A DNA stretch of 64,000 nt from Ferrimicrobium sp. (GTDB taxonomy: Bacteria > Actinomycetota > Acidimicrobiia > Acidimicrobiales > Acidimicrobiaceae), in assembly GCA_022690815.1 (NCBI GenBank), contig JALCZJ010000002.1, positions 62,001-126,000 on the forward strand. The letters run 5' to 3'. A program made the translations under genes and the position numbers. Numbering within the stretch: position 1 is the stretch's first letter; every line of letters begins with the position of its first letter. A model generated the notes under the pieces. That model made no database searches. It saw nothing but the letters and a program-made list of their open reading frames with translations, and was not told the DNA's origin. Positions 30,101 through 39,991 of the stretch are shown here, piece after piece.

Positions 30101-30274
30101 TTGGGAGCGGATAAAACTGAAGCGCAACCACGCTTTCATGGTTCCCCATCGTGCCCTCCTCAGCTAGCGTGAGCATATGGCACAATTGATCGGTCACCGA
30201 TCTCTCCATGATGTAGACCCTCGATGTCTCCCGAGTTCGACGTGGGATCACAACCAAGCCGGTGTCACTGCTCG

Positions 30275-31402
30275 ATGACCGTTCATATGCAGGACCCTCC
30301 GCGCCGTGTGGGCACTCGACGTCGTTGCTTGGCGCCAAGCAAGCTTCTCATTTTCGGCGCTACGTTGCTCGGCGCTACGTTGCTCGCCGCCTGCGGTCAA
30401 ACGTCCACAGCTACCGTCACTCTGACGTCCGTGAATCGGAAACAGACGTCGCTTGCGGACATCGTGCAACAATACTCCACTGCAAACAACCATGCCAACG
30501 AGACACTGAGTATCGCCGATCAGAACCGCGATGAGCAGGGTACGGCGGCCGCAATCGACGACACCGACTTTGCGATCTCACGTGATGCTGGTTACCAAAC
30601 CGCCCAGGGCAATAGCTACAAACCCTTCTATGAGAAACTCGATAGTGGTGTCCGACTTGGATCGAGCAAAGGCTATCCAAAGTTGCTGGTCACCGTTGAT
30701 GCTCAGTACACGAGTGACCCGAGGACAGCCAATCGTTCCGCCTGCCGCTTCCTTGGGGTGTTTGCCAAGAACTCGTCATCGCAACCGTGGCGGGTGGTTG
30801 ACGAGCCCACCGTCACCTCAGCGCTCCTACCAAAAGTCAAGGTCACCAATGGCGACGCTGGGATCGTTCCAAAGGCCTCGACCGAGCTCTCTGTCCCACT
30901 TGCCCGACTTGCCAAGTACTATGCCTTGGCGTTGACAACTTACTACCAGCAAGGGGTCCTATCGCGAGGATTGAAGCAAGCCGACTTCGCCACGACGGCC
31001 CAGTGTTGGTCGCTTCCTTCCCTTTCAACGAACCCCTACGTCTCCACCAGCTCGTCCAAGCGTCTCGCAACCGCCGCAACCGTTACCGCGGGGCACCCTC
31101 ACATGATCGCTATGACCACCGCGAACGGTGGAGCGCTCGCTGTCCTTACGCTCCACGTCGACCTCATCAGCTCCAGTGCCCAGAATGCTGCGTTCACCTG
31201 GCGCCACAGTACGAGTGATCCTGATTCATACCTCTTACCGGCCGCATCTGGACTCCACAGTATTCAGATACCCCTCCTGTTTGACCTCGCCGTGTACGAT
31301 CCACCAGTCGCCGCCACCAAACTAGCACCACGGCTAGTCGGGTCCTATTGGGGTCCTCTGCTCGGTGGCAACGAGACTTTCCAAGCCCCGGTTAACGCGT
31401 GA
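30275..31402 (+). CDS. Hypothetical lipoprotein
   Basis: A protein of about 375 residues with an N-terminal signal and lipobox LLAACGQ. The signal contains a perfect repeat GATLLGATLL, encoded by a 15-bp tandem duplication (30356-30385). The mature part has no recognised domain; it contains two cysteines (ACRFLG and QCWSL) that could pair. ATG 30275 is one of several possible starts (30224, 30287 are alternatives) and no strong ribosome site decides. It probably sits on the outer face of the membrane. The gene is followed by a hairpin. Confidence 0.6.
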   Translation: MTVHMQDPPRRVGTRRRCLAPSKLLIFGATLLGATLLAACGQTSTATVTLTSVNRKQTSLADIVQQYSTANNHANETLSIADQNRDEQGTAAAIDDTDFAISRDAGYQTAQGNSYKPFYEKLDSGVRLGSSKGYPKLLVTVDAQYTSDPRTANRSACRFLGVFAKNSSSQPWRVVDEPTVTSALLPKVKVTNGDAGIVPKASTELSVPLARLAKYYALALTTYYQQGVLSRGLKQADFATTAQCWSLPSLSTNPYVSTSSSKRLATAATVTAGHPHMIAMTTANGGALAVLTLHVDLISSSAQNAAFTWRHSTSDPDSYLLPAASGLHSIQIPLLFDLAVYDPPVAATKLAPRLVGSYWGPLLGGNETFQAPVNA

Positions 31403-31487: not shown

Positions 31488-32096
31488 CTAGTCTTGCGGG
31501 GTCGATGGATCCTCGGCGAGCATCTGGTACAGGTCACGGCGCAGCCGAGCAAGTAACCCTTGCGCGCGTTGACGTTGTTCCACGGTGCCAACCAAATCCA
31601 GTTGCCGTAGCGCCTGAAAGGTCGCCCGAATTTCACGACCCAGATCGATCTCTCGCCCCGAATTTTCCTCATCAGGCCCCAAGGTCATCGTCTCGGCTTC
31701 GGCTCTTCCTGCATCGGTAAGGGTGTAGACCTTTCGACCCTCTTCATCCTGACCTACAATCAGTCCAGCGTCCTCGAGCATCGACAGCGTCGGATAGATC
31801 GAACCCGGGCTCGGCTGCCACACGCCGCCATTGCGTTCGGCGATCAACTGCATCAGCTCGTAACCGTGTTTGGGCCCCTGGGTTAAGAGCACCAAAATTT
31901 CGCGACGAACGCGGCCTCGAGGAGACCGACGTCGGCGCATGCCTCCGCCGCCCTCGCAACCGCCGCCACCGCAACCCGGGCCGTGCATCCGCCCTCGGTG
32001 CATACCGTGTTCATTCATCATTCTTGGACCTCCTCCGTGTTGCTGGCCACAGTTACAGCCGTGTGCCTCGCCTTGGTGCATTCCGTGTTCCTTCAT
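31488..32096 (-). CDS. PadR-family regulator with His/Cys-rich N-terminal arm
   Basis: A 202-residue protein. The winged-helix part (EILVLLTQGPKHGYELMQLI, then WQPSPGSIYPTLSMLEDAGLI and KVYTLTDAGRAEAE) is a clear PadR domain at about residues 65-135, followed by a C-terminal dimerisation helix. The first 60 residues are unusual: two imperfect copies of an EHGMHxG unit, a CNC pair, HGPGCGGGGC and a Gly-rich stretch, then an Arg-rich linker. Such an arm could bind metal. ATG 32096 is preferred over GTG 32099 because GGAGG is five bases upstream. It lies downstream of the exporter operon on the same strand. Confidence 0.85.
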   Translation of the reverse strand: MKEHGMHQGEAHGCNCGQQHGGGPRMMNEHGMHRGRMHGPGCGGGGCEGGGGMRRRRSPRGRVRREILVLLTQGPKHGYELMQLIAERNGGVWQPSPGSIYPTLSMLEDAGLIVGQDEEGRKVYTLTDAGRAEAETMTLGPDEENSGREIDLGREIRATFQALRQLDLVGTVEQRQRAQGLLARLRRDLYQMLAEDPSTPQD

Positions 32097-32108
32097 CACT
32101 TCCTCCTC

Positions 32109-32124
32109 TAACGTTATATCGTTA
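32109..32124. promoter_or_regulatory. Candidate PadR operator upstream of padR
   Basis: TAACG-TTATAT-CGTTA is a dyad lying 10-15 bases upstream of the PadR start, overlapping the expected promoter. The core TATATC (32115-32120) recurs upstream of the exporter operon. Autoregulation by the PadR protein is inferred, not shown. Confidence 0.4.
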
Positions 32125-32269
32125 GATACAGTTTAATGACTGGTCCCGGACATGCTGCAGCGATCGTGATCGGACGCCGACCCTCTGGCGAACTCCACCA
32201 AAGAGCTGGGTTGCTAGCGCTTGCTCTCCCTTGATCATCGACCTCCCATTGGCGTCAATGAGTGAACTC

Positions 32270-33580
32270 CTATGGAATGCCACCAGCAAAACTTGAAGCC
32301 CCATCAATGAAGGCTCTACGTCCAGCCCTACCAGCGAATGCCCTTGCACCACCGAAGGCTCCAAACCCGCCAAACCCGCTCGTGGTTGTTGGCAAAGGTT
32401 CGTCTAGTCTTGCCAAAGCCACCTGCTCACCAAAGACCAAGCCCTTTGTCACCTGGGTATCGACGACGCCGACTACTCCAGTGGCTACGGTGGTTGGTCT
32501 CAGCTTGCCTCCCGTGACAAGATCGACAAACATCCGGCTCCCAATCCGTCGTATGGCGGACGTGGGCACCACGACTACATTGCGAGCCTGAGCGGTGTCA
32601 ATCGTCGTCGTCGCCGTCACGCCATCAAAGATGGTAAGTTTTGCATCTTTGAGTTGCACCGTCGCCTGCACGGTGGTCAACCCGGTGGTGGCGCTCGTGG
32701 TTGGCGTTGTGCCGATCGCCACGACCGTTCCACGGTATCGAACACGAGAATCTACCGGCTCCACCACAGCACCATCTCCAACGCGCAGCTCCGCAGCGTC
32801 GGTCAAACTCACAGGCACCGCATCGATGATCGCCCCAGGGCGAATAATGGTAATGGCCTCGGTGGAGCTATCCGGGGTTACCTGCTGATCTTGAGCAATC
32901 CCGACGCTCGCAACCGTACCGGTAATCGGTGCGATCAGACTCGCTACATTCGATGTTTGCAACGACGCAATCTGCGCTTGATCCGCCGCCACGACAGCCT
33001 GGTCATCAGCGACAGCCGTGGTGGAAACTGTTTGAGTCGGAGTCACCGCTGTGTCTCCCTTTCCTTGAGAGCTCAACGCAGCCTTCAAGGTTGAACACGC
33101 CTTCTGCTCTTGCGGGCTGGGCGTAGTACATAACGTCGCTAGGGCCTGAGCCGTATCAGCCTTTGACGTGGGGCCCGACGCATCCGGGGTGCTCGGCGTG
33201 TCCGATCCCTGCGATGCTGGATCTTCAGCTTCGGCCAGCGCTGTCTCCGCCTCAGCGAGCGCAGCCTCCTCCGTCTGTAAGGAGGCGGACGCATGTTGAG
33301 ATGGGTCTAGCGTTGCCAACGTCGCTCCCTGTGACACCGCTTCACCAACGTGTACATTCAACGCAGCTACCGTCCCGCTCACCGATGGCACGACCGACAC
33401 CTGCGACGCCGGGGCCAACACACCAACGCCGACCACCGTCGCTTCGACCGAACCGCGCGTCACCTCAGCAACCTGGTAGCTCCCTCCAGAGTGGCGAAGA
33501 CCGATAGCGACACCGACCGATGCCCCGACAACTAAGACCAGCACAGCCGCTGCCACGGCAGCCACCCGCCACCTAGGCAC
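32270..33580 (-). CDS. Efflux periplasmic adaptor (HlyD/MacA type), second copy
   Basis: A 436-residue adaptor protein: one N-terminal helix (VAAVAAAVLVLVVGASVGVAI), two lipoyl-type half motifs (VVPSVSGTVAALNVHVGEAV and APITGTVASVGIAQDQQV) flanking an Ala/Glu/Gln helical hairpin, then a beta-barrel. The C-terminus is Gly/Phe/Ala-rich (GFGGFGAFGGARAF). GTG 33580 is chosen because GGAGG lies five to six bases upstream inside the 3' end of the preceding gene; the frame farther upstream is antisense-like Ala/Val/Ser repetition. It probably works with the MacAB-like exporter as a second adaptor. Confidence 0.85.
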   Translation of the reverse strand: MPRWRVAAVAAAVLVLVVGASVGVAIGLRHSGGSYQVAEVTRGSVEATVVGVGVLAPASQVSVVPSVSGTVAALNVHVGEAVSQGATLATLDPSQHASASLQTEEAALAEAETALAEAEDPASQGSDTPSTPDASGPTSKADTAQALATLCTTPSPQEQKACSTLKAALSSQGKGDTAVTPTQTVSTTAVADDQAVVAADQAQIASLQTSNVASLIAPITGTVASVGIAQDQQVTPDSSTEAITIIRPGAIIDAVPVSLTDAAELRVGDGAVVEPVDSRVRYRGTVVAIGTTPTTSATTGLTTVQATVQLKDAKLTIFDGVTATTTIDTAQARNVVVVPTSAIRRIGSRMFVDLVTGGKLRPTTVATGVVGVVDTQVTKGLVFGEQVALARLDEPLPTTTSGFGGFGAFGGARAFAGRAGRRAFIDGASSFAGGIP

Positions 33581-34427
33581 TAGCGCCTCCACCGAAACCG
33601 CCACCACCACCGAAGCCGCCACCACCGAAGCCGCCGCCACCGAAGCCGCCGCCAAAGGCAGAGCAACTCCCATTCGTTGGGTCCGAGATGGCGATTGACT
33701 TTGCCGTGACTACCCCGATTGAGTTCGTCGTGCCCTGCACCGTCACACACTTTCCGACAGCGAGATCCGATGCCGTCGCCGACGAATGTTCAGTCACGGC
33801 CGTGGTACTCGAGACCGGAATCGTGACAACAGTCGATCCCTTCGTCTCGACAACCACCACCGCGTTCGTCTCCACGGTCTTGACCGTACCGACAATGGCC
33901 TTGAAACTACCGAAGTTAAACTTCCTGTTCCCAAAGGAACCTGACCCGAACGCTCGGCCTGGCCGATCACCACCCGTCGGAAATGTTGCAGCGGAACAAC
34001 CGTTGGTGGCAGGCAGAATCGTCAGAGCTCGCACCACTGCCGTCGATGAACCAGATGGGGTTACCTCCACAGCCGAAACACACTCACCAGCACGCAACGA
34101 ACTCGCCTTGGTTGTCACAGTCTGGGCAAAGGTGGTCGATGAACCCCACTTGACTGTCGACTCACCCGTCGAAGTTCCCTGAACCTGCATGCTTGCGCTC
34201 GGTGAGATGGCTTCAATCACTCCGGATGCGGCTGGTGGCGTAAAGTGACCCTTCCCAGGAAAGCGTGCAGGGAATTTTGATGTTCCTGGAACCTTCGAAC
34301 CCGACGTTGCTGGAGGCGTCGTCGCTGATGACGTCGCCTCGGTGCTTGCCGTCGACCCACAGGCCGCCAAGAGCAGTCCAGCCCCAAGCACGACCACCAC
34401 CGTACCAATCCACTTGGCCTCTTTCAT
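33573..34427 (-). CDS. Lipoprotein with Gly/Phe-rich tail (DUF5666-like)
   Basis: A 284-residue lipoprotein with lipobox LLAACGS. Two beta-rich domains follow, of the kind annotated DUF5666 (SGVIEAISPSASMQVQGTST and VGTVKTVETNAVVVVETKGS), each with conserved Cys in a GECV/GKCV context. The last 27 residues are almost only Gly and Phe (SAFGGGFGGGGFGGGG...). ATG 34427 has GGAGG five bases upstream and follows the permease stop by 10 bp. The 3' end encodes the ribosome site for the adaptor downstream. The role in export is unknown. Confidence 0.75.
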   Translation of the reverse strand: MKEAKWIGTVVVVLGAGLLLAACGSTASTEATSSATTPPATSGSKVPGTSKFPARFPGKGHFTPPAASGVIEAISPSASMQVQGTSTGESTVKWGSSTTFAQTVTTKASSLRAGECVSAVEVTPSGSSTAVVRALTILPATNGCSAATFPTGGDRPGRAFGSGSFGNRKFNFGSFKAIVGTVKTVETNAVVVVETKGSTVVTIPVSSTTAVTEHSSATASDLAVGKCVTVQGTTNSIGVVTAKSIAISDPTNGSCSAFGGGFGGGGFGGGGFGGGGGFGGGASA

Positions 34428-34436
34428 TACTCCTCC

Positions 34437-35660
34437 TTATTCGGTCCGCAACGCCTCGATCGGCGAAAGTCGTGCTGCTCGGGTCGCCGGGTAAACACCA
34501 AAGACGACGCTGATCACCATGGCGATAGCGATCGCTCCTGCCGTTACCCACGCCGGGATGCTGATCGGATCTGAGATCACCGATGGCAAGACGTGTTGAG
34601 CGACAAGGGCAATACCCGCGCCGATACCGCCACCCAAGATGCCGAGCATTAGTGCTTCCACCAGAAACTGTGCTCTGATATCTCGTGGTCGAGCTCCTAA
34701 GGCCTTGCGCAATCCGATCTCGCGCGTACGTTCGCTCACTGACACCAACATGATGTTCATCACACCGATACCGCCGACCAACAGTGAGACTCCAGCAATC
34801 CCGGCTAGGAGGGCTGTCAAGGTCGAACTCACCGATGTCGCTGTCGTCACCAGTGACTGTTCTGCCGTGATGGTGAAGTTTGCGTCAGCAGGGTTGGAGA
34901 TCTGGTGGAGCATCAGGAGTTCATTGTCAGCCTCCTGGTAGGCGGCCGACAACGTTGCTCCACTGGTTGCTTTCACCAAGATGGAGTCGACCGCGTCGTT
35001 AGAGGTCGTACCAAACAACGAATTGTCAGCGCTTGTCAATGGCACAATGGCCAGATCGTCCTGGTTCGACGTCGGCGAGGTGCCGGAACCGACTGAGTTC
35101 AGGACCCCGATGACCGTCATCGGGGTCGTTCCGACCGTCACCGTCTCTCCGACCGGATCGCGCCCTCCAAAGAGCTCGGAGGCCGCTTGCGAACCAAGCA
35201 CCACGACGTTAGCTCCCTCCGCCTCGTCGTTGGCGGTGAAGAACTCACCGGCCGCCACCGATCGAGACCGAACGGTCAACCAATTTGGTGTCGACCCGTA
35301 GACGATCATCGATGTGCTCGTCGTACCATAGGTGATGGTTTCATTGCCTTGCACCAACGGCGCAACGGCTTCGATCGCAGGGGCTACACGATGCGACGCG
35401 AGGGCCAGCACGTCTTGGCGGGTCAGTGTCTCGCCTGAGGCAGCCGTCGCCGCAGTCGACCCACCCGGCGAGATCGTCAACAGGTTTGACCCGAGGGCGG
35501 AGATCTCATTGGTCACCTTGGCCTGCGCACCTTCGCCAAGGCCAACCGTCACCATCACAGCGGCGATACCGATGACGATGCCCAAAATTGTCAGCAGCGA
35601 GCGCATCCGGTTCCACTGCACTGCCTCGAACCCAACGCGAAGCAACTCACCAAATCTCAT
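34437..35660 (-). CDS. MacB-like ABC exporter permease
   Basis: A 407-residue protein with one N-terminal membrane helix ([21 protein letters not shown]), a large extracytoplasmic MacB_PCD domain (about residues 45-270) and three C-terminal FtsX-type helices. Motifs include the cytoplasmic-loop [14 protein letters not shown] and the final [17 protein letters not shown], which are diagnostic of the MacB/LolE group. It overlaps the ATPase gene by four bases (ATGA). The exported substrate is unknown; macrolides, peptides and lipoproteins are all known for the family. Confidence 0.93.
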
Positions 35661-36337
35661 GCGGCGTCTCCAAGAATCCGTCCATCACGCAACGCCAACG
35701 ATTGCGAACCCCGAGCAGCCACCTGTTTATCGTGGGTGATCACGACGATCGTCCTACCACCAGCGTGAAGCTCATCGAAGATAGTCAGTATCTCCTCAGC
35801 ACTCACCGAGTCGAGGTTGCCTGTGGGTTCATCTGCCAGGATGAGATCCGGATCGCCAACGAGGGCGCGGGCGATAGCGACGCGCTGTTGCTGGCCACCA
35901 GAGAGCTCCATGGGCCGATGCCGCAAATGGTTGCCGAGGCCAATCCTATCGAGGAGCTCGCTGGCTCGCTCACGACGTTCAGCCTTCGGAACCCGAGCAT
36001 AGAGAAGGCCCAACTCGACGTTCGCCACCGCGTCCACCGACGCCAAAAGATTAAACTGCTGAAAGACAAATCCGATTCTGCGATTCCTCAAACGAGCGAG
36101 CTCAACCTCTCCCATCTGGTCCACTCGCTCACCCGAGATCAGTATCTGTCCGGCAGTTGGAACATCAAGACAGCCGAGAAGGTGCATGAGCGTCGACTTA
36201 CCGGACCCGGATGGTCCAGTAATCGTGAGAAACTGTCCCTCCTCGACCGTCATCGAGACTCCACGAAGGGCTTCAACCACCACCGAACCCAACAGGTAGC
36301 GCTTCGTAACGTCGCGAACGGAGATCACATCAGCCAC
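35657..36337 (-). CDS. MacB/LolD-like ABC exporter ATPase
   Basis: A 226-residue ATPase with Walker [11 protein letters not shown]-loop FVFQQFNLL, signature LSGGQQQR, Walker B LILADEP, D-loop GNLD and switch His in VITHD. GTG 36337 is preferred. The frame is open to 36451, but the extra residues ([17 protein letters not shown]) are the antisense-like reading of the Gly/Phe repeat of the preceding gene. The GTG overlaps the adaptor stop (GTGGCTGA) and is preceded by GGAGG in the adaptor tail. Confidence 0.93.
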
Positions 36338-37457
36338 CGAAGGCTCCTCCTCCACCGAAGGCTCCTCGCCGACCGAAGGCTCCTCGCCCAATAGACGTGG
36401 TGCCTGTTGCCCCAGCGAATGACGGAACATCTTCAACAATCTTGTCACCACTCGCGAGTCCCTTGGTCACAACCACCTCAGCGCCTGTGATGGAACCTAC
36501 CGAGATCGGAACCTTCCGTTGACCCGACCGAGTCGACTCAAGAACGTACGGCGACGAACTCAAAGAATGTACAGCGAGCGTTGGTATCTCGATGACGTCA
36601 GGCTCTACCTTGGTGACGATACTCACGGTGGCTGGCAACCCTGCGTAGAGACCTTTTGGGTCTCCAGTGACCGAGATTGTGACAGGAAATGTCGCTACGC
36701 CACTCGACGTCGTCGCCACGAGACCAACCGACGTTACGGTGCCATACACGTTGCTCGATGTCCCCTGTACACTCACGGTCGCCTGTTCGGAGTCCTGGAC
36801 CCCCGAGATGTTGGCATCGCTCACAGCGGCGTTGACGACCCAGGAACTCGACGACTCAATGGTGATACCGACCGTTTGCGCTTTGGTGGCGCTACCGCCG
36901 GACGAGGGCCCAACGCTTTGACCGGTAGCGAGATCGACAGCCGTCACGGTTCCGTCAAATGGAGCATACAACGATGCATCTGATAGATTCTGCTTAGCGG
37001 TATCCAGAGCTGTCGTATCAGCAGTGACCGTCGCCTGATCTGCTTGAATCGTTGCACTTGGAGCCGCGGCATCCTGATCGGCGGTGAGCTTCGTCTCGGC
37101 GGCAGTGAGCTGGGCCTGGGCCTGGGCCTGGGCCGCCTGCAGCGGAGCAGTATCAAGGCTCGCCAATAACGTTGAGGGCGTTACCGCCTCACCCACCGTC
37201 GCCTCGACCGAGGCAACCGTTCCTGAAGTCAGGAAATCAACCGTCTGGTCTTGGCTCGGCTCAACCGTGCCTGAGGCTGCAACTTGCTGAGAAGCGGATG
37301 TCTCCGAGACGGTTAGCGTCCGTGGAACCAATACAAAGCTCTTCGCGCTCGTCGCCGATGTGGTGAAACTTCTCAGACCATAACCGACGCCGACAAGCGC
37401 CAACCCAACGATGACTCCCGCCGCGACGCGTTGCCACCGTCTCCAATGCTGTGCCAT
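36330..37457 (-). CDS. Efflux periplasmic adaptor (MacA type), first copy
   Basis: A 375-residue adaptor: N-terminal helix (VAAGVIVGLALVGVGYGL), lipoyl halves VDFLTSGTVASVEATVGEAV and DASLYAPFDGTVTAVDLATG, a short helical hairpin with a Gln-Ala repeat (QAQAQAQ, from GGCCTG hexamers near 37115-37135), a beta-barrel and a C-terminal Gly/Phe-rich tail ([18 protein letters not shown]). The start ATG 37457 has no strong ribosome site. It is the first gene of the operon and runs into the ATPase gene with an eight-base overlap. Confidence 0.9.
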   Translation of the reverse strand: MAQHWRRWQRVAAGVIVGLALVGVGYGLRSFTTSATSAKSFVLVPRTLTVSETSASQQVAASGTVEPSQDQTVDFLTSGTVASVEATVGEAVTPSTLLASLDTAPLQAAQAQAQAQLTAAETKLTADQDAAAPSATIQADQATVTADTTALDTAKQNLSDASLYAPFDGTVTAVDLATGQSVGPSSGGSATKAQTVGITIESSSSWVVNAAVSDANISGVQDSEQATVSVQGTSSNVYGTVTSVGLVATTSSGVATFPVTISVTGDPKGLYAGLPATVSIVTKVEPDVIEIPTLAVHSLSSSPYVLESTRSGQRKVPISVGSITGAEVVVTKGLASGDKIVEDVPSFAGATGTTSIGRGAFGRRGAFGGGGAFGG

Positions 37458-37564: not shown

Positions 37565-37593
37565 GTTAGTGACTGTCCTAATATATCACTAAC
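37565..37593. promoter_or_regulatory. Dyad upstream of exporter operon
   Basis: GTTAGTGA (37565-37572) and TCACTAAC (37586-37593) form a perfect 8-bp inverted repeat with a 13-base spacer, about 110 bp upstream of the first adaptor gene. The AT-rich TATATC inside it (37582-37587) matches the core of the dyad upstream of padR, so both may be PadR operators. Confidence 0.4.
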
Positions 37594-37702: not shown

Positions 37703-39991
37703 CTACTGTTGGGCGAGAATGGCCTCTATCTCAGCGAGTGGATCACGTACTCGTGGCCCCATTGCCTCGATCACGGCACGCTCAATGGTTCCTGTGAACG
37801 CGAAAGGAGCCTCATAACCGTCGCCGACGGATGGCCCCCATTCATAACCACATGTCAACCCAGCACCTACCCCGTTCAACCCCGCAGGGGGAACCCGATC
37901 GAGGGCGATCGAGGTAGATTGATCCTCATCAACACTGAGTGTCGCTTGACCTCCATCGCGACCATCTTTACTGAAGACTAGTCTCACCAGGTGTCGACCG
38001 GTTCCAATGGCATCAGTGATCGCGATTGTGTGACGGGTTTTGCCGTAGAGGTTGTGGGTATAGTGAATACGCCCATCGAGCACATAGAGCGACCAGCCGC
38101 CCAGCGCAGATCCTTGTGCAATGAGTACACCCTTGGGCATCACGCCAGCGGGTACAGTGCACTCCACCTCAATGCGATAGGAACGATACTTGAGATCGAT
38201 CGCCACCACCTCAGGAACCTGGGAGACTCCAGGGAAGTAGCGCATGCGATCAGGATTGACGCGTTGATCCGGCTTTGGATGGACCAGGGCCCATAGAATC
38301 CGATTATCGAGTGGCAAAACCTGATTGCGCTCCGCCTCGAGCCACCACTGTTCGACAAGGTTGGCCAAGAGCTCGGGGTGTTGTTGTGCGAGATCTTCCA
38401 CCTCCGACAGGTCATTTGCTACGTGGTAAAGCTCCCAGACATCATCGTCGAAGTCGTCGTTCGGGTTTTTGTCGTCATAGAGCGGCGCAATGGGATGGAA
38501 GGCGACGGCTTTCCAGCCATCGCGGTAGATGGCTCGCGAGCCGAACATCTCGTAATACTGAGTCGTTCGCAACGCAGGAACATCCGCTGAGTCGGGCCGT
38601 AGTAATGAGGCAAAGCTAAGAGAATCCACTGGCGTCTGAGGTACGTAGTCGATCACTGCAGGCTCAGCAATGCCTAGGAGTTCGAGAATCGTGCCGCGCA
38701 CATCGATAGCGTGGCAATACTGATGTCGGATTCCTCCTTCATCGAGATGGCCATTGGGCCAAGACAAAATGCAAGGATCCGCGACACCCCCTTCATGCAC
38801 CTCACGTTTCCAACGCCGAAATGGCGTGTTCCCGGCCATCGTCCAACCCCAGGGGTAGTTGTTGTGGGTAAAGGGTCCACCAATCTCATCGATGCGGTCA
38901 AACATCTCCTGTGTCGTGGCTGGATCAAGGTTCGCCAACCGAATATCGTTGATGGAGCCTTCCGGCCCGCCCTCGGCGCTCGCTCCGTTATCCGACACGA
39001 GTACCACGATTGTGTTACCGAGCTCACCAAGATCATCGACAAAGTCAAGCAGGCGCCCAATTTGTTCGTCGGTGTGGGAAAGAAAACTGGCAAAGGCCTC
39101 CATGAAACGCGCGGCGACCGCGGCCTCGGTCTGGTCCAGCTCCTCAAAGGGACGCACCCAATCTGGGCGCATCGAGAGACGGGTACTCGAGGGAAGGATC
39201 CCACTTTCCAGCTGCCGAGCGAAGGTTGCCTCCCTCCAGCGGTCCCAACCTTCATCGAAGGCGCCTCGGTATCGGTCTGCCCATCGCTTGGGCGGTTGAT
39301 GGGGGGAGTGGCAAGCTCCAGGGCAAAAGTACAAGAAAAATGGACGTGACGCCTCAACAGCTCGAAGATCTGCGATGAACGCTGTTGCATGATCGACAAG
39401 ATCTTCTGTTAGATGGTAGCCATCGTTGTAGGAGCGTGGTGGACGCAGCGAATGGTTGTCGTGATAGAGCGCTGGGAAGAACTGGTGTGTCTCTCCCCCA
39501 TGGAATCCATACCACCGGTCGAAACCACGCCCAAGGGGCCATGACGCACGAGAGGCTGCCATGTGGGTCTCATCATCTGGGGTCAAGTGCCACTTACCGA
39601 TGGCATAGGTGGCATAACCTTGAGATCGCAGCACCTCAGACAGGAATCCATTTTCTTTGGGGGGTTTGCCATAGTAGCCAGGGAAGCCAATAGCCAGATC
39701 GGCCACACGACCCATCCCATTACGGTGATGGTTTCTGCCTGTCAACAGACAGGCTCTGGTCGGCGAACAAAGTGAGGTGGTATGGAAATTCGCCATCCGT
39801 ACACCTCTGGCTCCAAGTGCATCCATTCTCGGTGTTGCGATGTCAGATCCGTAACAACCAAGTTGGGCAAAACCAACATCGTCCAAGACTATCATTACCA
39901 CGTTTGGACTTGCCGCCTTCGGGCGAGGTTCCTTGGGCCACCAGGGTACTGAAGTACGCCAATCTCGACCAATTGTTCCATGGAAGTCCAC
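37703..39991 (-). CDS. Arylsulfatase (formylglycine-dependent)
   Basis: A 762-residue type I sulfatase. The modification motif Cys75-Ser-Pro-Thr-Arg (SLCSPTRACLLTGR) is intact, so a formylglycine-generating enzyme would be needed. Metal ligands are seen in VVMIVLDDVGFAQLG (Asp37, Asp38) and LVSDNGASAEGG, and the active-site Lys/His in AIGKWHL. The C-terminal 170 residues form a separate beta-rich region (YRIEVECTVPAGVMPKGVLI). No signal peptide is visible; the enzyme may be cytoplasmic or use an N-terminal start not resolved here (GTG 39991). It should release sulfate from organic sulfate esters. It stands alone. Confidence 0.9.
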   Translation of the reverse strand: MDFHGTIGRDWRTSVPWWPKEPRPKAASPNVVMIVLDDVGFAQLGCYGSDIATPRMDALGARGVRMANFHTTSLCSPTRACLLTGRNHHRNGMGRVADLAIGFPGYYGKPPKENGFLSEVLRSQGYATYAIGKWHLTPDDETHMAASRASWPLGRGFDRWYGFHGGETHQFFPALYHDNHSLRPPRSYNDGYHLTEDLVDHATAFIADLRAVEASRPFFLYFCPGACHSPHQPPKRWADRYRGAFDEGWDRWREATFARQLESGILPSSTRLSMRPDWVRPFEELDQTEAAVAARFMEAFASFLSHTDEQIGRLLDFVDDLGELGNTIVVLVSDNGASAEGGPEGSINDIRLANLDPATTQEMFDRIDEIGGPFTHNNYPWGWTMAGNTPFRRWKREVHEGGVADPCILSWPNGHLDEGGIRHQYCHAIDVRGTILELLGIAEPAVIDYVPQTPVDSLSFASLLRPDSADVPALRTTQYYEMFGSRAIYRDGWKAVAFHPIAPLYDDKNPNDDFDDDVWELYHVANDLSEVEDLAQQHPELLANLVEQWWLEAERNQVLPLDNRILWALVHPKPDQRVNPDRMRYFPGVSQVPEVVAIDLKYRSYRIEVECTVPAGVMPKGVLIAQGSALGGWSLYVLDGRIHYTHNLYGKTRHTIAITDAIGTGRHLVRLVFSKDGRDGGQATLSVDEDQSTSIALDRVPPAGLNGVGAGLTCGYEWGPSVGDGYEAPFAFTGTIERAVIEAMGPRVRDPLAEIEAILAQQ

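Follow-up and report, generated by a model that had tools for sequence, protein, structure and literature searches.

The stretch of DNA analyzed here, 64,000 nucleotides (nt) of contig JALCZJ010000002.1 from Ferrimicrobium sp. (hereafter the window), contains an operon in which two distinct adaptors are encoded together with one transporter, as in TriABC. The genes code, in order, for adaptor 1, an ATPase, a permease, a lipoprotein and adaptor 2 and are followed, after a gap, by a gene for a PadR regulator (Table 1). Judging from the families of the permease, the ATPase and the adaptors, this five-gene cassette is a MacAB-type ATP-binding cassette (ABC) exporter. Successive junction spacings are -8, -4, +9 and -8 nt. 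Thus, three of the four junctions overlap, including a 4-nt overlap between the ATPase and permease genes, and all are inside the -8 to +10 coupling range.

Composition of the five-gene operon

The permease exceeded the Pfam gathering scores for MacB_PCD (1e-48) and FtsX (8e-22), and its closest solved relative in a sequence search of the PDB was MacB (4e-54). The ATPase matched Pfam ABC_tran (8e-33), with MacB and LolD as the top NCBIfam models, both under cut-off. Both adaptors matched Pfam HlyD_3 above its score (6e-8 for adaptor 1 and 1.7e-9 for adaptor 2). Adaptor 1 also exceeded the cut-off of the NCBIfam model RND_mfp (105.4 bits versus 94.9), and the PDB sequence search returned MacA as its closest solved relative (3e-12). 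Adaptor 2 was slightly under the same cut-off (92.5 bits), and its predicted structure aligned with that of MacA over 308 residues (Z 18.1; root mean square deviation, 8.6). We refer to the exporter as MacAB-like rather than as a macrolide pump because the NCBIfam equivalog cut-offs for E. coli MacB (966; permease, 220.7 bits; ATPase, 234.8 bits) and MacA (342; adaptor 2, 61.7; adaptor 1, 52.4) were not reached. Among the eight proteins of the operon and its surroundings that were scanned, none matched a TolC-type channel, no search aimed at TolC-type genes having been made.

MacAB-TolC from Escherichia coli, YknWXYZ from Bacillus and Spr0693-0695 from Streptococcus pneumoniae share with the window operon a MacB-type permease and a MacA-type adaptor. 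In YknXYZ, as in the window, the ATPase is encoded separately, and YknW is described as an additional accessory membrane protein (PMC5985334). The window operon differs from these MacAB-type pumps by the addition of a second, different adaptor, of a two-domain lipoprotein and of Gly-rich tails. Two non-identical adaptors that have different roles and serve one transporter are described for TriABC-OpmH of Pseudomonas aeruginosa (PMC13328181). That system has a resistance-nodulation-division motor and an outer membrane channel in a diderm host, whereas the window operon encodes an ABC motor in an actinobacterium.

The lipoprotein model (mean predicted local distance difference test [pLDDT] score, 70.6) consists of two tandem six-strand beta domains, each containing one pair of Cys residues (116/144 and 227/255) that is invariant across 12 aligned sequences. 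Fold comparison indicated that oligonucleotide/oligosaccharide-binding (OB) folds are the most similar (best Z, 8.5), many OB-fold rows being tied for this common arrangement. The protein can be described as DUF5666-like only, its score of 19.6 bits being under the Pfam gathering score of 27 for DUF5666 (PF18914). Foldseek with the lipoprotein model returned nothing at E < 0.001, and a PDB sequence search with its alignment returned nothing credible (best E, 0.049). The C-terminal domain of SilB, which acts as a metal chaperone (PMC4446572), is an OB-fold-like domain tied to an efflux adaptor. It ranked 40th (Z 6.3), and the resemblance is limited to the common arrangement. Since the likeness in fold is weak, and since the invariant and near-invariant columns of the 12-sequence alignment contain no His and no Met past the start, a metal chaperone function for the lipoprotein was set aside.

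Table 1. Features of the exporter operon and of its surroundings in the window
Feature	Position	Strand	Detail or basis
Adaptor 1	36330..37457	-	HlyD/MacA-type, 375 residues
Adaptor 1 C-terminal tail	36333..36410	-	Gly/Phe-rich
Overlap, adaptor 1 to ATPase	36330..36337	-	8 nt, GTGGCTGA; adaptor 1 stop and ATPase GTG start
ATPase	35657..36337	-	MacB/LolD-type, 226 residues; GTG start at 36337
Permease	34437..35660	-	MacB-type, 407 residues
Lipoprotein	33573..34427	-	284 residues
Lipobox			LAAC, lipoprotein residues 20-23; sequence
Lipoprotein domain 1	33978..34244	-	OB-fold-like; predicted structure, fold comparison
Lipoprotein domain 2	33660..33914	-	OB-fold-like; predicted structure, fold comparison
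Lipoprotein tail	33576..33656	-	Gly/Phe-rich, predicted disordered
Overlap, lipoprotein to adaptor 2	33573..33580	-	8 nt, GTGCCTAG; lipoprotein stop and adaptor 2 GTG start
Adaptor 2	32270..33580	-	MacA fold, 436 residues; GTG start at 33580
Adaptor 2 long hairpin region	32939..33307	-	123 residues; Cys 151 and Cys 162
Adaptor 2 tail	32273..32404	-	Gly/Ala/Phe-rich, predicted disordered
PadR regulator	31488..32096	-	Pfam PadR, 2e-22
Candidate operator directly upstream of padR	32107..32126		Imperfect palindrome TCTAACGTTATATCGTTAGA; 10-nt arms, 90% complementary
Candidate operator upstream of adaptor 1	37565-37593		Inverted repeat GTTAGTGA-13-TCACTAAC

Two adaptor types and their distribution

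Distribution was analyzed in a named set composed of the best 80 of 590 candidate MacB-type loci, with phyla assigned from record titles and three loci of unknown phylum kept apart. Loci in which no adaptor was detected were left out of the phylum counts (2/26 for Actinomycetota, 4/32 for diderms, 1/10 for Chloroflexota and 1/6 for Patescibacteria). Two adaptors were present in 15 of the 24 remaining Actinomycetota loci and in none of the 28 diderm loci. The full five-gene order occurred in 8 of the 26 Actinomycetota loci, from Frankia, Amycolatopsis, Aeromicrobium, Herbiconiux, Cellulomonas, Demequina (two loci) and Miniimonas, and a ninth locus (L103) ends at a contig end. These counts indicate that two distinct adaptors combined with one MacAB pair recur across Actinomycetota. 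In that phylum, they contradict an earlier sequence-only reading of the window, which had considered two adaptors and a lipoprotein with a single MacAB pair to be unusual. Searches of an open-licence library gave us no description of the cassette or of its tails, which is weak evidence of absence. Two Chloroflexota loci of the named set also carry two adjacent adaptors; in Chloroflexota MacB loci L131 and L148, the adjacent adaptor genes lie upstream of the ATPase gene and only the second encodes a Gly-rich tail.

The adaptors encoded at the first and second positions differ in their hairpins, which we defined as the segment between the lipoyl halves and measured from the alignment. Adaptor 1 of the window has a hairpin of 61 residues devoid of Cys. 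All 29 measurable position-1 partners were of this type (57 to 65 residues, no Cys), and all 31 position-2 hairpins comprised 108 to 471 residues with exactly two Cys (the position-1 adaptor of L108, cut by a contig end, was excluded from these counts and from the tree). None of the seven outgroup adaptors contained Cys in the hairpin, and the four diderm MacB-linked adaptors among them had hairpins of 93 residues, in contrast to the 61 residues of adaptor 1. In adaptor 2, Cys 151 and Cys 162 are located in the middle of the hairpin, between two short helices predicted with modest confidence. Because this location would be extracellular, the two residues probably form a disulfide.

When 73 adaptors were placed in a maximum-likelihood tree, every one of the 31 position-2 sequences was on one side of a single branch (support, 100/99), which was present in 200 of 200 bootstrap trees. 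The position-1 adaptors surround the position-2 clade, and two changes are needed; the root was set for drawing only, and 29 rows were of unusual composition. This topology suggests, as the simplest reading, a single old split between the adaptors followed by joint retention. Among loci with one adaptor, L104 has a hairpin of 62 residues and three Solirubrobacterales have hairpins of 133 to 218 residues, all without Cys. In two Acidimicrobiaceae MacB loci in which a single adaptor was found (L107 and L123), the hairpin is position-2-like, with two Cys, in agreement with the branching of these adaptors beside the position-2 clade.

The two adaptors might assemble into separate homomeric pumps that share the ATPase and the permease and handle different substrates or operate under different conditions. 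The strong divergence of the hairpins and the existence of single-adaptor relatives, L107 and L123 with a position-2-like hairpin among them, are as this arrangement would have it. We nonetheless regard it as rather improbable, since both adaptor genes remain in one operon across distant Actinomycetota, which favors joint use.

Glycine-rich tails and overlapping gene starts

Tail composition was evaluated against a 264-kb genome sample consisting of the window and ten 20-kb stretches (L093-L102), in which gene calling by a simple script gave 165 proteins. A Gly content of 40% or more over the 30 C-terminal residues was limited to two of these, the lipoprotein (0.63) and adaptor 1 (0.40), with adaptor 2 in third place (0.27). 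The sequence-only reading had proposed an exporter operon whose secreted components carry unusual tails, and both the Pfam families and this ranking, in which the operon accounts for the top three proteins, are in agreement with it. Its description of three Gly/Phe-rich tails applies to adaptor 1 and to the lipoprotein; the tail of adaptor 2 is less rich in Gly and holds no gene start, padR, the next gene, beginning approximately 170 nt further. In the two proteins that were modelled, the tails are predicted to be disordered (pLDDT < 50; lipoprotein residues 259-284 and adaptor 2 residues 393-436).

In 23 five-gene operons (one of which is cut by its contig end and lacks adaptor 1), 9 or more of the 30 C-terminal residues were Gly in 21/22 adaptors 1, 13/23 lipoproteins and 11/23 adaptors 2 but in none of the 23 ATPases or 23 permeases. 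Thus, the tails mark the secreted subunits, not the ATPase or the permease. When the named loci in which an adaptor was detected were compared, a Gly content of 30% over the last 40 residues was reached by one or more adaptors in 21/24 loci from Actinomycetota, 5/9 from Chloroflexota, 2/3 from Bacillota, 0/5 from Patescibacteria, 1/28 from diderms and 0/1 from an unknown phylum. The difference between Actinomycetota and diderms corresponds to a Fisher value of 2e-10, which overstates independence because the loci share ancestry. High GC content was rejected as the source of the tails, since 20 of the 28 loci from diderms have more than 58% GC, yet no more than one reaches 30% Gly.

Two of the three tails are encoded by tandem DNA repeats, of 15 bp (3.7 copies, positions 33600-33654) and 18 bp (3.2 copies, positions 36334-36390), both periods being multiples of three. 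The idea that the tails are copies of one module was discarded, since the periods differ and, short of an alignment between the two arrays, no common unit is apparent. The repeats, together with the shifts in tail length and composition observed between close relatives, could be explained by neutral, functionless expansion of low-complexity sequence at protein ends in GC-rich genomes. This explanation is one that we hold to be unlikely, though well worth keeping in view: neutral expansion would have to spare all the ATPases and permeases encoded alongside the tailed subunits, to place the three highest C-terminal Gly contents of the genome sample in one operon, and to be frequent in Actinomycetota but nearly absent from diderm loci of which 20 are GC-rich. 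Disorder and variability are more in keeping with flexible tethers than with fixed modules binding each other or the substrate, a role that the sequence-only reading had suggested. The C-terminal part of adaptors is reported to form most of the membrane-proximal domain (PMC4446572). The tails would therefore be expected to hang near the permease and not at the distal end.

The 8-nt overlaps with tail-encoded Shine-Dalgarno sequences and GTG starts, reported in the sequence-only reading, were found at both junctions (Table 1). An AGGAGG match precedes the GTG of the ATPase gene by 8 nt, and GGAGG precedes that of the adaptor 2 gene by 5 nt. The best start was located at -4 in 9, at -8 in 6 and at -1 in 3 of the 62 tandem pairs scored in the genome sample, and the two operon junctions account for two of the six -8 pairs. 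According to PMC10666635, -8 ranks behind -4 and -1 among short overlaps of E. coli and is the minimum overlap possible in its reading frame; -8 is named as an enriched class in PMC12548453. To estimate chance, the amino acids of the tails were fixed and the codons were redrawn from the usage of this genome. Shine-Dalgarno matches of at least 5 bases appeared in 34% of the draws for Gly tails versus 3% for an average tail, Gly codons making such sites approximately 10 times likelier. A start at -8 appeared in 27% (adaptor 1), 10% (lipoprotein) and 7% (average tail) of the draws, and both elements jointly in 9.4%, 3.5% and 0.25%, respectively. Gly tails thus ease the formation of such junctions, yet the presence of both in one operon is still uncommon.

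Conservation of the junctions was evaluated in relatives. Searching 60 related genomes identified adaptor 1 in 35 and the lipoprotein in 22, and 30 stretches were taken for local comparison (L092 had no matches, L065 contained an in-frame TGA in adaptor 1, L073 and L074 were partial, and L077 had broken frames). The lipoprotein gene was followed by the adaptor 2 gene in 14 of these stretches, all from the same genus or family, and in the window, giving 15 readable local junctions in addition to nine from named Actinomycetota. The -8 start was present in 14/15 local and 5/9 named junctions (two of the five from Frankia), i.e., in 19/24, the remainder being -4 or -1 (four junctions) or 0 (one junction). 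The start codon varied between GTG, ATG and TTG at constant spacing. In seven of the 19 operons with the -8 start (L066, L067 and L069-L073), the lipoprotein ends with 20 to 35% Gly in the last 20 residues and no Phe in the last 40, and in L066 and L069-L073 its tail is Ser/Thr-rich. A 4-base Shine-Dalgarno match was missing in 7 of the 19 junctions. The adaptor 1-ATPase junction was more variable: the overlap was shared with L063 and L064, whereas many other relatives lacked it, a -8 candidate was present in 8/28 local and 3/22 named rows, and other spacings were common (nearest starts at -11 in L069, -1 in L079, +3 in L083 and +73 in L088). The comparison bears out the earlier reading in part. 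Between the lipoprotein and adaptor 2 genes, it is the start that has been preserved, and the tail can be exchanged; between the adaptor 1 and ATPase genes, neither is strictly preserved. As a side observation, two genomes of the same genus, G001 (L063 and L070) and G003 (L064 and L072), each contain two paralogous copies of the operon, with Lys/Gly- or Ser/Thr-rich ends replacing the Gly/Phe tails in the second copies.

The overlaps fit the translational coupling that the sequence-only reading had proposed. It had also suggested that the tail DNA is kept both as a protein tail and as the ribosome site of the next gene, tail and coupling having evolved as one device. The window and L063, from the same genus, do combine a tail-encoded Shine-Dalgarno match with GTG at -8 at both junctions, and the codon model gives the pair of junctions in the window a joint chance of approximately 0.3% (9.4% x 3.5%), although both were picked after being seen. 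L064, 77% identical in adaptor 1, retains GTG at -8 twice without a Shine-Dalgarno match. Since the -8 start persists in operons without a Gly/Phe-rich tail, tail and overlap are separable, and a single device is quite improbable. A conserved dual-coding tail was accordingly dropped as the principal explanation. The known cases of coupling by short overlaps include the same -8 class (PMC10666635 and PMC12548453) and a link to heteromeric complexes (PMC10666635). The putative coupling in the window differs in that the repeat tail of the upstream protein provides the Shine-Dalgarno sequence.

Proposed mechanism and flanking genes

The interpretation that we favor, with fair but not high confidence, is an asymmetric two-adaptor MacAB-like exporter in which tails and overlaps are separate features and the start, rather than the tail, is kept. 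ATP-driven movements of the permease would push the substrate through a ring in which both adaptors are combined, by analogy with TriA and TriB. The long, probably disulfide-stapled hairpins of adaptor 2 would extend toward the wall, and the lipoprotein may be the partner of adaptor 2, whose gene it regularly overlaps. The secreted subunits would carry the Gly-rich tails as flexible extensions, with the tail codons incidentally providing a ribosome site at the start of the next gene, and coupled translation would lead to production of the subunits together. According to PMC10666635, subunits of heteromeric complexes are over-represented among gene pairs spaced by -8 to +10 nt; this enrichment supports, but does not prove, the joint pump.

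Several observations weigh against this interpretation. A single adaptor was found in 9 of the 24 Actinomycetota loci with an adaptor (several of these nine are truncated at contig ends), and seven two-adaptor loci have no lipoprotein between the permease and adaptor 2. In about half of the operons, the tails of the lipoprotein and of adaptor 2 contain fewer than 9 Gly in 30 residues. The lipoprotein falls short of the cut-off for DUF5666, and in fold it matches no more than a common arrangement. Separate homomeric adaptor rings also fit the sequence. The start codons are candidates read from the sequence, with alternatives such as ATG at +1 in L063, GTG at -17 in L064 and ATG at +16 in L067. 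Conservation of -8 may reflect inheritance and not selection, and coupling at -8 is reported to be less efficient than at shorter overlaps (PMC10666635).

A more elaborate proposal, to which we give only tentative credence, is that the cassette belongs to an unnamed Actinomycetota-wide class of exporters. Short- and long-hairpin adaptors would alternate in one ring with the long arms crossing or anchored in the wall, the co-translated two-domain lipoprotein would dock on the long-arm adaptor, and the disordered Gly tails would act as a flexible gasket on the membrane side. Why Gram-positive bacteria, which have no outer membrane, retain MacA-type adaptors is a question raised in PMC5985334, and a recurrent pump whose two adaptors differ so markedly in hairpin length makes this question testable. 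For the analysis of adaptor stoichiometry, the cassette is moreover a natural counterpart of TriAB with an ABC motor. The junctions call for caution, since a repeat-encoded tail may mimic a dual-purpose device where the start alone is kept.

From its gene position, PadR is inferred to control the operon. Its N terminus is enriched in His, Met, Cys and Gly over approximately 60 residues, a composition suggesting that this extension is metal- or redox-responsive. The candidate operators upstream of padR and of adaptor 1 (Table 1) have GTTAG in common and are possibly a shared operator; the pattern searched came from the padR palindrome, and its self-match there proves nothing. Beyond padR, on the plus strand, positions 30224-31402 encode a lipoprotein weakly similar to the SCO2278 family (45.9 bits versus a cut-off of 210). 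Just upstream of the operon, positions 37703-39991 of the minus strand encode a Sulfatase-family enzyme (Pfam Sulfatase, 6e-59).

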